Source: Streptomyces sp. SM11 (GTDB lineage Bacteria > Actinomycetota > Actinomycetes > Streptomycetales > Streptomycetaceae). From it: a stretch of DNA of 64,000 nucleotides. The stretch spans positions 2,208 through 66,207 of the forward strand of contig NZ_NEUE01000138.1 of the NCBI RefSeq assembly GCF_002910905.1, in the 5' to 3' direction. Each line of letters starts with the position of its first letter. The first letter of the stretch is position 1. Shown here piece by piece: positions 27,389-48,467 of this stretch. The notes under the pieces were generated by a model. It saw nothing but the letters and a program-made list of their open reading frames with translations. It had not been told where the DNA came from and did not search any database. A program made the translations under genes and the position numbers.

Positions 27389-27481
27389 CTTGCGTACGAG
27401 CCTACCCGTCGCCTCCGACACTCGGCGCGACCTTTAAATACCCTTGGCCCTTCCCCCGCTCGACGCCGGCTCAGCGACCCG

Positions 27482-30523: not shown

Positions 30524-31480
30524 TCAGACCGCGTCCTCGTAGGCGGCGAGCGCCTCGCGGGCAGCCGTGCGGGCGCTGTCCGCGAGCTCCGGCGGGGTGA
30601 CGATGCGGCCGTCGCCGCCGAGGCGCAGGGCGAGCCGGCGCAGCGAGGCCGGGTCCGGGGTGCGCAGGGTGATCCGCAGACCGCCGTCGGGGAGTTCCTC
30701 GGCGGAGTCGTGCGGGTAGTACTCGGCGACCCAGCGGCCGCCGGTGCCGACCTCGATCACGACTTCCGGGTCCTCGACGGCGGGCTGGACCAGCCCCGCG
30801 GACAGATCGCGCAGCTCCAGCTCGGGCGGGGCGGCGGGAGCATCGAGGAGGCGGATCTCGGCGACCCGGTCCAGCCGGAAGGTCCGGCGGGCCTCGGAGA
30901 GCCGGCACCAGCCCTCCATGTAGGTGTGTCCGACGGCGAAGAGCCGGATCGGGTCGACCTCGCGCTCGGTGAGTTCGTCGCGGGCCGGCGAGTAGTAGCG
31001 CAGCCAGAGCCGGCGGCGTTCGGAGATGGCCCGGTCGACGTCGGCGAAGACGCCGCCCTCGGCCTCGAAGGTCACCGAGAGCCGGGAGCTGGCCGCCCCG
31101 GACTCGCCGGCGGCCGTCTCCAGCTTGGCGGTCGCTCGGACGAGGGCGAGCCGGTCGCTCTCGCGCAGGCCGGGCAGGGTGGCGACGGCGCGGGCGGCGA
31201 CGAGCAGCGCGGTGGCCTCGTCGGCGGCGAGCCGGAGCGGCTCGGCGACGTCGTCCGGGTTGTGCCACCAGATGCGGTCGCCGTCGGTGTCGATGTCGAG
31301 GAGGTCGCCGCCGCGGAAGCTGGTGCCGCACATGGGCAGGACGTCGAGGTCCGAGATCAGCTCGTCCTCGGTGATCCCGAAGGCCCGTGCCACGTCCTGG
31401 ACGTGGGCGCCGGGGCGCTCCCGCAGATACGTCACGAGGGACAGCATCCGGCGGGTCTGGTCGATCGCGTTCGTGGCCAT
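30524..31480 (-). CDS. pafC: WYL-domain transcription activator PafC
   Basis: A 318-residue PafC. The N-terminal winged HTH (RMLSLVTYLRERPGAHVQDVARAFG) is followed by a WYL domain (about residues 140-230, RRLWLRYYSPARDE, FAVGHTYMEGWCRLSEARRTFRLDRV) and a C-terminal WCX domain. PafB and PafC act together in mycobacteria as activators of the RecA-independent DNA-damage response, binding RecA-NDp promoters. ATG 31480 is chosen because it precedes the HTH; 14 bases separate it from pafB. A RecA-NDp-like promoter is present elsewhere in this window, upstream of a RecB-family gene. Confidence 0.93.
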   Translation of the reverse strand: MATNAIDQTRRMLSLVTYLRERPGAHVQDVARAFGITEDELISDLDVLPMCGTSFRGGDLLDIDTDGDRIWWHNPDDVAEPLRLAADEATALLVAARAVATLPGLRESDRLALVRATAKLETAAGESGAASSRLSVTFEAEGGVFADVDRAISERRRLWLRYYSPARDELTEREVDPIRLFAVGHTYMEGWCRLSEARRTFRLDRVAEIRLLDAPAAPPELELRDLSAGLVQPAVEDPEVVIEVGTGGRWVAEYYPHDSAEELPDGGLRITLRTPDPASLRRLALRLGGDGRIVTPPELADSARTAAREALAAYEDAV

Positions 31481-31494
31481 CGTTTCCCTAGTCC

Positions 31495-32448
31495 CTAGTC
31501 CTTGGCCACGGCGCGGAGCCGGTCCACCACATCGGCCCGCAGATCGGCGGGTTCCTCCACGACGACGTCCGGGCCGAACTCGACGAGCCAGGCATCGAGG
31601 CCGTGTCCGTACGGGATCTCCAGCTCGTCCCAGCCGTCTCCGCGTTCCCGCACGGCGGTCGCGCGCGACCGCAGCGGGTAGCCGGCTCCGGCGCGCAGCC
31701 TGATCCGGGCGGTACGGGTCGCGGTCTCGCCGGCCCAGCTCTCGACGGTCTCGCGGACGGTGACCACGTCGGGCACCTCGGCGCTGAAGGCTCCGGCGCG
31801 GGAGCGGACCTTGCCGGTGATGCGGGAGAGCCGGAAGACGCGTTCGGCGCCCCGCTCGCGGTCCCAGCCAGCCAGATACCAGTGGCCGCGCCAGCATTCG
31901 AGGGTCCAGGGTTCGACCTGGCGCTGCTCGGGACGGGCGGAGTTGGCCTTGCGGTAGTCGAAGGTGACGGGGCGTCGGTCGCGACAGGCCAGCATGAGCG
32001 GCTCGAAGGCGGCCTCGTGGACGGGGATACGGGGTTCGAGGGCACTGTGGACCTCGTAGGCGTCCTCGGCCTCGGGCATTCCGGCGGCCCGCAGCTTCTG
32101 CAGGGCGCCGCTGGCGGCTCCGGCGAGGCGGGCCTGCTGCCAGACCTTGGCGGCGAGGCCGAGGGCGGCGGCCTCCTCGGCGTCCAGGGTGATGGGGGGC
32201 AGCCGGTTGCTGTCGCGGCGGGCCAGGTATCCGGTGTCGCCGTCGAGGTTCTCGACGGTCTCGATGACGAGGCCGAGCTCGCGCAGATCGTCCTTGTCGC
32301 GCTCGAACATCCGGTTGAAGGAGTCGTCGGAGCCCGCTTCGAGGTAGGCCTCGATGGATCCGCGGAGTTCGCGCTTGCTGAGCGGGCGCCGGGTCCCCAG
32401 CAGGCACAGCGCGAGGTTCATCAACCGCTCGGCCTTGGCAATCGCCAT
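31495..32448 (-). CDS. pafB: WYL-domain transcription activator PafB
   Basis: A 317-residue PafB, paralogous to PafC. The winged HTH covers residues 1-70 (AERLMNLALCLLGTRRPLSKRELRGSI, with MFERDKDDLRELG). The WYL domain at about 145-215 contains RPVTFDYRKA and WYLAGWDRERGAERVFRLSRI. Together with PafC it forms a heterodimeric activator of DNA-repair genes. The gene name comes from its link to pafA in actinobacteria. The pair is followed by zinc-ribbon, small membrane and tat genes and preceded by a hairpin terminator of the FKBP gene. Confidence 0.93.
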   Translation of the reverse strand: MAIAKAERLMNLALCLLGTRRPLSKRELRGSIEAYLEAGSDDSFNRMFERDKDDLRELGLVIETVENLDGDTGYLARRDSNRLPPITLDAEEAAALGLAAKVWQQARLAGAASGALQKLRAAGMPEAEDAYEVHSALEPRIPVHEAAFEPLMLACRDRRPVTFDYRKANSARPEQRQVEPWTLECWRGHWYLAGWDRERGAERVFRLSRITGKVRSRAGAFSAEVPDVVTVRETVESWAGETATRTARIRLRAGAGYPLRSRATAVRERGDGWDELEIPYGHGLDAWLVEFGPDVVVEEPADLRADVVDRLRAVAKD

Positions 32449-40264: not shown

Positions 40265-40309
40265 GTAGCTCACCCCGCTCGGTTCGAAGCAATCGAAGCT
40301 CTTGATCAG

Positions 40310-40331
40310 ACCCTACCCACGGGGTCCGACA
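40310..40331 (-). promoter_or_regulatory. RecA-NDp-like promoter upstream of pup
   Basis: Reading the minus strand, TGTCGGAC, 8 bases, then TAGGGT approaches the RecA-NDp/PafBC consensus TGTCRGTG-N8-TAnnnT. It would start transcription about 40 bases before pup. The last two bases of the -35-side box deviate. Confidence 0.45.
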
Positions 40332-45209: not shown

Positions 45210-46121
45210 TCAGCTACGGGAGGCGGCGGAGCCGCTCTGGCTGCCGGGTCCGTCGTAGTCGTCGCCGTAGGCGCCCTTGGACGGGCGGCGGCGGCGCAGC
45301 GGCGGCTCGACGCCGTCCGCAAGCCGGCGGGCGGTGACCAGGAAGCCGGTGTGGCCGATCATCCGGTGGTCGGGGCGGACGGCGAGGCCCTCCACGTGCC
45401 AGTTGCGGATCATCGACTCCCAGGGCTGCGGTTCGGCGAAGCAGCCGATCTCGCGGATGGACTCGACGGTGCGCGAGAGCTGGGTGGTGGTGGCGACGTA
45501 GGCGCAGAGGATGCCGCCGGGCACCAGGGCCTTGGAGACGGCCTCCAGGCACTCCCAGGGGGCGAGCATGTCCAGCACGACGCGGTCGACGTCGGTGTCG
45601 GAGAGGTTGTCCTGGAGGTCGCCGACGGTCAGCTGCCAGGCGGGGTGCGGCGAGCCGAAGTAGCGCTCGACGTTCTGCTGGGCGATCTCGGCGAAGTCCT
45701 CGCGGCGCTCGTAGGAGTGCAGCATGCCCTGCTCACCGATGGCGCGCAGCAGGAAGGTGCTGAGCGAGCCGGATCCGACGCCGGCCTCCACGACGCGGGC
45801 GCCGGGGAAGATGTCGGCGAAGGCCAGGATCTGGCCGGCGTCCTTGGGGTAGACCACGGCGGCGCCGCGGGGCATGGACAGGACGTAGTCGGGGAGCAGG
45901 GGGCGCAGCGCGAGATAGGCGACGTTTCCCGTGGTTCGGACAACACTGCCCTCGGGAGCACTGATCAGCTCGTCGTGCGGGAAAGAACCCTTGTGGGTGT
46001 GGAAGTTCTTTCCGGCTTCGAGCGTGAAGGTGTAGTGGCGTCCCTTGGGGTCGGTGAGCTGGACCTGGTCCCCGACCTTGAAGGGCCCACGTCGGCGGGC
46101 GGCACCGGTCGGTTCAGACAT
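45210..46121 (-). CDS. trmI: tRNA (adenine-N1)-methyltransferase TrmI
   Basis: A 303-residue class I methyltransferase that makes m1A58 in the T-loop of tRNA. The N-terminal beta domain (FKVGDQVQLTDPKGRHYTF) is followed by PKDAGQILAFADIFPGARVVEAGVGSGSLS (SAM motif I) and DRVVLDMLAPWECLE. The basic C-terminal tail is rich in Arg/Gly/Ser. TAGGCT lies 6 bases before ATG 46121, so the mRNA is probably leaderless. It is also syntenic with the proteasome locus in mycobacteria, where the orthologue is Rv2118c. Confidence 0.93.
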   Translation of the reverse strand: MSEPTGAARRRGPFKVGDQVQLTDPKGRHYTFTLEAGKNFHTHKGSFPHDELISAPEGSVVRTTGNVAYLALRPLLPDYVLSMPRGAAVVYPKDAGQILAFADIFPGARVVEAGVGSGSLSTFLLRAIGEQGMLHSYERREDFAEIAQQNVERYFGSPHPAWQLTVGDLQDNLSDTDVDRVVLDMLAPWECLEAVSKALVPGGILCAYVATTTQLSRTVESIREIGCFAEPQPWESMIRNWHVEGLAVRPDHRMIGHTGFLVTARRLADGVEPPLRRRRPSKGAYGDDYDGPGSQSGSAASRS

Positions 46122-46193
46122 GTGACCAGCCTACCGGTGATTCCCGGGCCGCCGACCGCCCGGCCGGTGCGGTGACGCCTCCGTGGCCGGGGC

Positions 46194-47444
46194 TCAGGTT
46201 TCGGGGCGGGCCATGGCCTTGACGAAGGCGCGCTCCACGTCGGCGGTGGAGAGGACCCCGTAGATCTCACCGGTCTCCTCGACGACAAGGTATTCGGTGG
46301 CGGGGGTGGCCTTGAGCCGGTCCAGGAGGGCTTCGCCGGCCAGTTCCGCGGGGACCTTCATACCGTCGGTGAGGTCCTGGGCAAGGCCGCTGACGGCGAC
46401 CCAGGGGCGGCGGTGTTCGGGGACGCCGACGATGGCGGCCTCACGGACGACGCCCTTGGGCCGGCCCTGCCCGTCGACGACGACCAGGGCGCGGGCACCC
46501 GCCTCGTTGGCCCGGCGCAGCGCTTCGGAGAGCGGGGTGGCGGACTCGACGGGGACGGCGCGGCGGGTCAGAGTGCGGGCCCGGAGGTCGGGCAGGTGCT
46601 CACGGAGGCGGGCCATGCGCAGGCTGTTCCCTGCGCCGGTCCAGATGATGCCGGCGAGAATCGCGGCGAGCAGCGCGTCCATGACGGTCTCGACGCCGCC
46701 GATGTCCTGGGCGGAGCCGCCGAGCGTTCCGGTGTGGGTGAGCAGCGGCAGTCCGACGAGGACGACGACGGCGAGGCCGCGGCCGACCCAGGCGGCGGCG
46801 ATCGTGCCGCTCATGGGCTTGCCGGTGATCTTCCAGACGACGGCGCGGAGCATCCGGCCGCCGTCCAGGGGCAGGCCGGGCAGCAGGTTGAAGGCGGCCA
46901 CGATGAGGTTGGAGATCATCAGGCCCGCGAGCAGGACGCCGGGGACCGTGCCGGGCTCGACGAACTGCATCGCGCCGTAGAAGACGCCGCCGAGGACCAG
47001 CGACAGGAGCGGTCCGACGAAGGCGAGGACGAACTCGCGGCCGGGCGTCTCGCTCTCCTTCTCGATCTCCGAGACGCCGCCGAAGAACTGGAGCTGGATA
47101 CGGCGGACCGGAAGCTTGTAGTGCAGGGCGGCGACCGTGTGGGCCAGCTCGTGGACGAGCACGGAGGCGTAGAAGGCCATGGCGAAGAACAGGGCGACGA
47201 GGTAACGGGCGCCGCCCAGCTCGGGCAGCACGCGGTCGAGCTGGCCACCGAACACCCAGGTGATCAGCGCGGCGACGACGAACCAGCTGGGGGCCACGTA
47301 GACGGGCACGCCGAAGGGCCGCCCCATGAGCAGGCCGCCGCCCGGCTCCGCGGGGCGTTTCGGCCGGCCGTTGCCGGGGTCGGTGCCGGGGGCTGTTCCC
47401 CCTGCGCCGGGCTGCGGCCGCCCGCTGTCGCCGCTCTCGTCCAC
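46194..47444 (-). CDS. Site-2 zinc metalloprotease with two CBS domains
   Basis: A 416-residue intramembrane protease of the S2P family (Rip3-like). Six helices carry the HExxH motif (VHELAHTVAALHY) and the second metal site NLLPGLPLDGGRMLRA. A cytoplasmic pair of CBS domains occupies residues about 280-410 (ALVVVDGQGRPKGVV, EYLVVEETGEIYGVLS). Such enzymes cut transmembrane helices of regulators such as anti-sigma factors. GTG 47444 follows AAGGGAC. It is divergent from the RecB-family gene. CBS domains suggest control by nucleotides. Confidence 0.9.
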   Translation of the reverse strand: MDESGDSGRPQPGAGGTAPGTDPGNGRPKRPAEPGGGLLMGRPFGVPVYVAPSWFVVAALITWVFGGQLDRVLPELGGARYLVALFFAMAFYASVLVHELAHTVAALHYKLPVRRIQLQFFGGVSEIEKESETPGREFVLAFVGPLLSLVLGGVFYGAMQFVEPGTVPGVLLAGLMISNLIVAAFNLLPGLPLDGGRMLRAVVWKITGKPMSGTIAAAWVGRGLAVVVLVGLPLLTHTGTLGGSAQDIGGVETVMDALLAAILAGIIWTGAGNSLRMARLREHLPDLRARTLTRRAVPVESATPLSEALRRANEAGARALVVVDGQGRPKGVVREAAIVGVPEHRRPWVAVSGLAQDLTDGMKVPAELAGEALLDRLKATPATEYLVVEETGEIYGVLSTADVERAFVKAMARPET

Positions 47445-47524
47445 GGGGTCCCTTCGGTTCGGTGAGTGGCCTTTGCCACGATCATGCAGTGTGCGAGGGT
47501 CTGCCGTCGATGGTATGCCGCTGG

Positions 47525-47547
47525 CTGTCAGTGGCGGGCCGTAGGGT
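47525..47547 (+). promoter_or_regulatory. RecA-NDp/PafBC-type promoter of the RecB-family gene
   Basis: CTGTCAGTG, 8 bases, then TAGGGT matches the RecA-NDp consensus (TTGTCRGTG-N8-TAnnnT) at all but the first base. The -10 hexamer ends 8 bases before the ATG, so the transcript is essentially leaderless. PafB and PafC, the known activators of such promoters in mycobacteria, are encoded in this window. Confidence 0.75.
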
Positions 47548-47555
47548 CTGGAGAC

Positions 47556-48467
47556 ATGACTTCCGTGCCGCGGCCGCCTCAGCCGCCTTCGTCCCTGTCG
47601 CCGTCGCGGGCGAGCGATTTCATGCAGTGCCCCTTGCTCTACCGCTTCCGGGTCATCGACAAGCTGCCGGAGAAGCCCAGCGAGGCGGCTACCCGCGGCA
47701 CGCTGGTCCATGCGGTGCTGGAGCGGCTCTTCGACGCCCCGGCGGCCGACCGTACGGCGCCGCGGGCGCGGGCGTTGATTCCCGGCCAGTGGGACCGGCT
47801 GCTGGAGTCGAAGCCGGAGCTGACCGAGCTGTTCGCGGGGGAAGCCGGGGGCGAGCGCCTGACGCGCTGGCTGGGCGAGGCGGAGCGGTTGGTGGAGCGG
47901 TGGTTCTCGTTGGAGGACCCGACGCGTCTTGAGCCGGCGGAGCGCGAGCTGTTCGTCGAGACGGAGCTGGATTCGGGGCTGCGGCTGCGCGGGGTGATCG
48001 ACCGGGTGGACGTCGCGCCGAGCGGCGAGGTCCGGATCGTCGACTACAAGACGGGGAAGGCTCCGCGGCCGGAGTATTCCGAGGGGCCACTGTTCCAGAT
48101 GACGTTCTACGCGCTGGTGATCTGGCGGCTGAAGGGCGTCGTGCCGCGCCGCCTCCAGCTGGTCTATCTGGGCAGCGGGGACGTGCTGACGTACGACCCG
48201 GTGGTGGCGGACCTGGAGCGAGTGGAGCGCAAGCTGCTGGCGCTGTGGGACGCGATCGCGCTGGCGACGGAGACCGGGGACTGGCGGCCCCGGCCGACGA
48301 AGCTGTGCGGCTGGTGCGACCACCAGTCGGTGTGTCCGGAATTCGGCGGTACTCCCCCGGTCTATCCGCTGTCGGTCCGCCCGGCGGGTTCGGGTGTGGA
48401 TGGTCAGGGCAGAATGGGACCGGTCCAGGCCGAGGCTGGCCGAGCCGTGGCCCTTGAGGGCCCTTAA
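47556..48467 (+). CDS. RecB-family (Cas4-like) nuclease with Fe-S cysteines
   Basis: A 303-residue PD-(D/E)XK nuclease. SLSPSRASDFMQCPLLYRFR opens the fold, GTLVHAVLERLF carries the conserved His, and GVIDRVDV plus IVDYKTGK are the catalytic Asp/Asp-x-Lys core. CGWCDHQSVCPEF at the C-terminus, with the early Cys of MQCPLLYRF, gives the four cysteines of an AddB/Cas4-type 4Fe-4S cluster. ATG 47556 directly follows the damage-type promoter. It should process single- or double-stranded DNA ends during repair. The response-regulator gene starts 9 bases after its stop. Confidence 0.9.
   Translation: MTSVPRPPQPPSSLSPSRASDFMQCPLLYRFRVIDKLPEKPSEAATRGTLVHAVLERLFDAPAADRTAPRARALIPGQWDRLLESKPELTELFAGEAGGERLTRWLGEAERLVERWFSLEDPTRLEPAERELFVETELDSGLRLRGVIDRVDVAPSGEVRIVDYKTGKAPRPEYSEGPLFQMTFYALVIWRLKGVVPRRLQLVYLGSGDVLTYDPVVADLERVERKLLALWDAIALATETGDWRPRPTKLCGWCDHQSVCPEFGGTPPVYPLSVRPAGSGVDGQGRMGPVQAEAGRAVALEGP

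Follow-up and report, generated by a model that had tools for sequence, protein, structure and literature searches.

The nuclease gene and its probable promoter element

The window (the whole stretch of DNA that was analysed, 64,000 nt), which its closest matches place in the S. anulatus/S. griseus group of Streptomyces, carries a Pup-proteasome locus in the order HelY-like helicase, TatC, pafC, pafB, pafA, prcA, prcB, pup, dop and ARC/Mpa, beyond which lie genes for a TrmI-like methyltransferase, a site-2-protease-like protein and, next, a nuclease; names in this order that lack a family match are readings of the translations. The nuclease ATG at 47556 is preceded by CTGGAGAC (8 nt) and, at 47525-47547 (+), by CTGTCAGTG GCGGGCCG TAGGGT, which deviates from the pattern tTGTCRGTG-N8-TAnnnT solely at its weak first base (C for T). 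The features of the putative transcription unit are as follows:

47526 to 47533, plus strand: PafBC-specific upstream (-26) element TGTCAGTG of a RecA-NDp promoter, assigned by motif match; the -26 role is taken from PMC11804915
47542 to 47547, plus strand: -10 element TAGGGT (TAnnnT), separated from the upstream element by an 8-nt spacer
47554 to 47556, plus strand: predicted transcription start, placed from the position of the -10 element, 0-2 nt before the nuclease ATG
47556 to 48467, plus strand: 303-aa stand-alone PD-(D/E)XK (PDDEXK_1) nuclease with an Fe-S Cys quartet, RecB/AdnAB/Cas4/Dna2-like by Pfam, structure and residues
48477 to 49148, plus strand: NarL/FixJ-type response regulator, possibly the second gene of the transcription unit, starting 9 nt after the nuclease stop

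A preliminary description of this DNA had proposed a near-perfect RecA-NDp element upstream of the nuclease, with its -10 at 8 bases from the start codon; sequence and spacing are indeed exact, and TAGGGT ends at 47547. Orientation and distance to the start codon fit a RecA-NDp/PafBC promoter, and the distance is similar in Streptomyces and in most of 59 other genomes. How much weight can the match bear within the window? A scan for the TGTCRGTG-type pattern with 3 mismatches allowed gives 2 matches where 0.96 are expected, which is weak evidence alone. The mycobacterial PafBC consensus, by contrast, finds exactly three sites (0.12 expected), a number reached by 0/100 shuffles; besides the nuclease site, these are:

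40310 to 40331, minus strand: second PafBC-type site, TGTCGGACCCCGTGGGTAGGGT, before pup (start at 40273 or 40264), found by the mycobacterial consensus scan
27399 to 27420, minus strand: third PafBC-type site, TGTCGGAGGCGACGGGTAGGCT, before the HelY-like DEAD/DEAH helicase gene, 10 nt ahead of its ATG (27388)

The encoded nuclease matches PDDEXK_1 with an E-value of 5.7e-41. Among 22 orthologues H52, D149, D163-x-K165, Q181 and Y185 are invariant and reproduce the catalytic H, D, (D/E)xK, QxxxY pattern; equally invariant are C25, C251, C254 and C260, which fit the C-(n)-CxxC-x5-C arrangement of predicted cluster ligands. The AlphaFold model (pLDDT 86) has its best structural match in the nuclease domains of AdnAB (E 1.6e-10), followed by Cas4-family proteins, RecE, AddB, Dna2 and EXO5, and the best sequence match in the PDB is 6ppu (E 2.5e-5). 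Judged by its sequence, the protein is a catalytically intact stand-alone Fe-S enzyme; the earlier label "RecB-family Fe-S nuclease" is sound because the PDDEXK_1 match, the Cys quartet and the intact active site all speak for it. With the nuclease domains of AdnA and AdnB it has in common the H, D, DxK and Q/Y residues and the four Cys, Cas4, Dna2 and EXO5 being further fold relatives; unlike AdnA, it stands alone, without a helicase domain, and identity is ~25%. A literature search found no characterisation of this nuclease.

Conservation and genome-wide distribution of the element

The exact element precedes the nuclease in 76 of 80 Streptomyces orthologues, and the other four differ by single changes in the upstream element. 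Mean column conservation is 1.74 bits within the element vs 0.76 in the 60 bases upstream, and in TGTCAGTG most columns approach 2 bits (76 distinct Streptomyces sequences). Outside the genus, TGTC(AG|GG|AC)-N10-TANNNT lies a few bases ahead of a start codon in frame in 45/59 Actinomycetes genomes, against a shuffled null of 0.0004 (0.04%); the strict match is missing in the remaining 14, several of which show a near match in the corresponding position. The same test applied at helY succeeds in 7/7 Streptomyces and in 0/23 other genomes; the test thus does not fire everywhere, which makes helY a built-in negative control, and the helY element itself is, from this distribution, probably a lineage-specific gain. 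The nuclease, by contrast, retains its PafBC-type promoter over most of the class Actinomycetes and is therefore probably a core repair enzyme of this class and part of a second damage response.

Adjacent to the element, at 47501-47524 and immediately 5' of it, lies another conserved block, GTCGATGGTATGCCG, whose minus-strand reading contains TACCAT. This hexamer may serve the divergent site-2-protease-like gene as its -10, in which case the two promoters may interfere.

Is the element peculiar to the nuclease? Across the whole 8.0-Mb genome of the strain, all of which was searched, NTGTCRGTG-N8-TANNNT has 34 exact sites vs 0 for the reversed pattern used as the control, and when the spacer is allowed to vary from 4 to 12, 34 of 36 matches have exactly 8; the element is therefore not a product of chance. 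About 15 of the 34 sites precede genes of DNA repair or replication, recA among them. Those identified by Pfam encode RecA, UvrB, two UvrD-family helicases (one of which belongs to an AdnAB-like pair), RuvC, uracil glycosylase (ung), DnaN, an HhH-GPD glycosylase, an exonuclease III-type protein (xthA), the large subunit of exonuclease VII, an AlkZ-like glycosylase, an O6-methylguanine methyltransferase and MgsA/RarA, besides the nuclease itself; a DinG-like helicase, a macrodomain-like protein and an ECF sigma factor resembling SigG (labels partly read from sequence) also follow the motif, and some motif-bearing genes are unrelated to repair. In this genome the motif picks out a coherent repair regulon: the genome-wide comparison with known damage genes that the preliminary description had called for yields the 34 sites, with recA, uvrB, uvrD, ruvC, ung, xthA and dnaN among the genes behind them.

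The exact element is also present ~26 kb downstream of the nuclease (loci L010, at G000:C73:75533-75554, and L206), before an 800-aa gene that reads as a RecD-like ATPase; Streptomyces genome G023 has the same element.

The position of the motif also bears on the kind of message it would produce. A set of 41 Streptomyces genomes contains 1369 exact motifs, and an RTG follows the -10 by 5-9 nt in 62% of them, vs 13% at 20-24 nt. At the nuclease, the distance from the -10 to the start codon would put the transcript start 0-2 nt before the ATG. From position, PafBC-type promoters in Streptomyces may often give leaderless messages; a literature search found no paper stating that they commonly do.

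PafB, PafC and rival regulators

Which activator would use such a site? The preliminary description had placed PafB and PafC about 15 kb away, and the two genes, for WYL/WCX proteins of which PafC has the HTH_PafC domain, are found with their nearest edge 15.1 kb from the promoter element:

31495 to 32448, minus strand: PafB (WYL/WCX regulator), with a conserved recognition-helix Arg pair in RMFERDK
30524 to 31498, minus strand: PafC (HTH_PafC, WYL, WCX), assigned by domain matches

This PafB matches the solved mycobacterial PafB (E 1e-56), and the best PafB/PafC pair of the genome is the one in the proteasome locus. PafC was found in every Streptomyces genome checked for it. Motif counts were compared with HTH_PafC matches in a phylum sample of 119 genomes, in which the motif is enriched only where a strong PafC match is present: 240 motifs vs 8 for the control in genomes of the same class (n=10), 110 vs 17 in strong-PafC genomes from other classes (n=53), and 38 vs 36, hence no enrichment, in those lacking one (n=56). 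A class sample of 78 genomes gives 1115 vs 41, and in the 41 Streptomyces genomes TGTCAGTG-N8-TANNNT occurs 1369 times vs 12, an enrichment of ~110-fold; the counts across phylum, class and genus ignore kinship, and since the genomes are related they are not independent events.

These results bear directly on whether the nuclease might simply be transcribed from a constitutive HrdB promoter, with TAnnnT present by chance and TGTCAGTG either a coincidence or the site of an unrelated regulator. TAnnnT -10 boxes are generic, as such a promoter would need; however, the fixed 8-nt spacing, the genus-wide enrichment, the repair-gene targets and the PafC dependence of the motif make this reading highly improbable. 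A consensus scan, which is a poor test in Streptomyces, found no sigma-70-type pair around the nuclease and response regulator genes.

Could another WYL-domain activator, SiwR- or DriD-like, take the place of PafBC? HTH_PafC-like matches beyond this pair are present in the strain's genome (6 in G000), and two genomes of family f64 (G138 and G170, loci L153 and L170) keep the nuclease and a TGTCGG-N10-TACGGT element before it, yet have no detectable HTH_PafC; their PafC may have diverged, or another activator may have taken over. Against such a substitution in general stand the location of the best PafB/PafC pair in the proteasome locus, the close match of its PafB to the mycobacterial protein and a motif equal to the mycobacterial PafBC consensus, and we regard it as very unlikely.

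Finally, damage could induce the promoter through LexA and RecA (SOS) rather than PafBC. A LexA regulon exists in Streptomyces, with recA and ruvC as LexA targets in S. venezuelae (PMC9380542), and since these same two genes bear the PafBC-type motif in the genome studied here, dual control exists. However, a search of 45671-47718 that allowed up to 3 mismatches found no TCGAAC-N4-GTTCGA-like box, the conserved block before the nuclease coincides exactly with the RecA-NDp element, and M. tuberculosis rv2119 goes up upon recA deletion (PMC8151990); SOS control of the nuclease promoter is thus hardly to be expected. By the same box search, the nuclease was not assigned to the LexA/SOS gene class.

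The segment 47525-47547 is very probably a PafBC-dependent promoter of the RecA-NDp type, independent of RecA/LexA, which drives the nuclease and probably reads onward into the response regulator. PafBC works through sigma adaptation: PafB sits on the -26 element, and ssDNA is the trigger (PMC11804915). On the scheme drawn from the mycobacterial literature, DNA damage would produce single-stranded DNA that binds to the WYL domains of the PafB-PafC heterodimer; PafB would read TGTCAGTG, PafC would bridge to the housekeeping sigma factor, and RNA polymerase would initiate from TAGGGT with no need of a -35 box. In Streptomyces, PafBC would act in this manner at the nuclease promoter; the mRNA would be leaderless or nearly so, beginning no more than 2 nt before the ATG, and the Fe-S nuclease would trim DNA ends or overhangs, its presumed substrates, in recombinational repair. 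The link between the nuclease and the RecA/LexA-independent damage response, as originally suggested, is borne out by the repair regulon, PafC co-occurrence, conservation among orthologues and the mycobacterial literature, evidence that is comparative, not experimental; a literature search found no induction, start-site or binding report for the nuclease gene in any Streptomyces.

Known promoters of this type and other genes of the locus

The RecA-NDp promoter was found in 2002 at recA of S. rimosus (Ahel et al., as cited in PMC2375139 and PMC5087735), and the type was generalised in 2004 in M. tuberculosis (a reference in PMC5087735). As given there, the S. rimosus sequence, TTGTCAGTGGC-N6-TAGggT, is almost identical, base by base, to the element before the nuclease; it drives recA, whereas here a stand-alone nuclease follows, and, as far as the citing papers convey that work, PafBC was not known to Ahel et al. 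(2002). A motif scan (SIGffRid, Studholme set) found 67 S. coelicolor genes preceded by a TGTCAGT-type motif, with DNA repair enriched among them (PMC2375139); the source's account of the motif makes no link to PafBC, and its 67-gene list may already include the nuclease. S. coelicolor SCO6735, which has a RecA-NDp promoter, rises 5-fold after UV (PMC5087735). The promoter type is thus already known, and the nuclease promoter would be an added case, apparently a target conserved class-wide.

In its M. tuberculosis form, the mycobacterial PafBC consensus reads TGTCGG-N10-TA-N3-T and tolerates TGTCAG or TGTCAC as its first six bases (PMC8151990); the nuclease element satisfies it. Shared with the Mycobacterium regulon are the core TGTC(GG/AG/AC)-N10-TA-N3-T, the repair genes and the position of the activator genes in the Pup-proteasome locus. 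When M. tuberculosis with recA deleted is exposed to mitomycin C, rv2119, a recB-like exonuclease gene, is over-expressed (PMC8151990); in our judgement, rv2119 is the orthologue of the nuclease. The variable base of the motif differs: A is preferred in the Streptomyces genome (28/34 sites), and G in mycobacteria. The PafB recognition helix was examined for substitutions that follow this base, and no clean covariation emerged: the residue before RMFERDK is N in most Streptomyces, S in family f3, K in f54 and E, D or R elsewhere, and the pattern is broken because genome G128 uses A (4/4) with the same K as its G-using relatives and one Streptomyces has S.

If the motif is so common in Streptomyces, how is a published negative to be explained? 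An initial search by Stratton et al. (2022) suggested that S. venezuelae does not conserve the PafBC motif known from M. smegmatis, and the same study stated that a RecA/LexA-independent response in Streptomyces had yet to be demonstrated (PMC9380542). The negative likely came from one base, the genome studied here having mostly TGTCAG and mycobacteria mostly TGTCGG. The enrichment across 41 Streptomyces genomes contradicts the published S. venezuelae negative, and the open question of a PafBC response in Streptomyces becomes testable.

The element before pup occurs in 6/7 Streptomyces, 4/4 genomes of family f56 and 0/2 of f3, with TGTCAC versions in 2/4 of f57; in 6/7 Streptomyces (window included), 4/4 f56 genomes and one f57 genome, the interval from the nuclease to pafC holds exactly two elements, those of the nuclease and pup. 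Before pup, positions 7-8 do not show the TG of the longer element, and this site carries less weight as evidence than the one before the nuclease. It points to the Pup tag itself being under damage control; that the PafBC response in Streptomyces also drives the protein-tagging arm through the pup promoter is a tentative proposal, somewhat doubtful as matters stand. If true, damage would induce the repair genes, the nuclease and the Pup tag, the later remover of repair proteins, in one locus.

The response regulator lies downstream of the nuclease in 80/80 Streptomyces, mostly across a gap of 9-15 nt (9 nt in 39), and a scan found no terminator-like site between the two genes. Co-transcription is likely from this arrangement, and the tight conserved gene order makes PafBC-type damage control of the response regulator plausible. 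In five loci of other genera (L131, L136, L138, L140 and L141), a regulator closely related to this one stands ~1.3 kb beyond the nuclease, not directly behind it.
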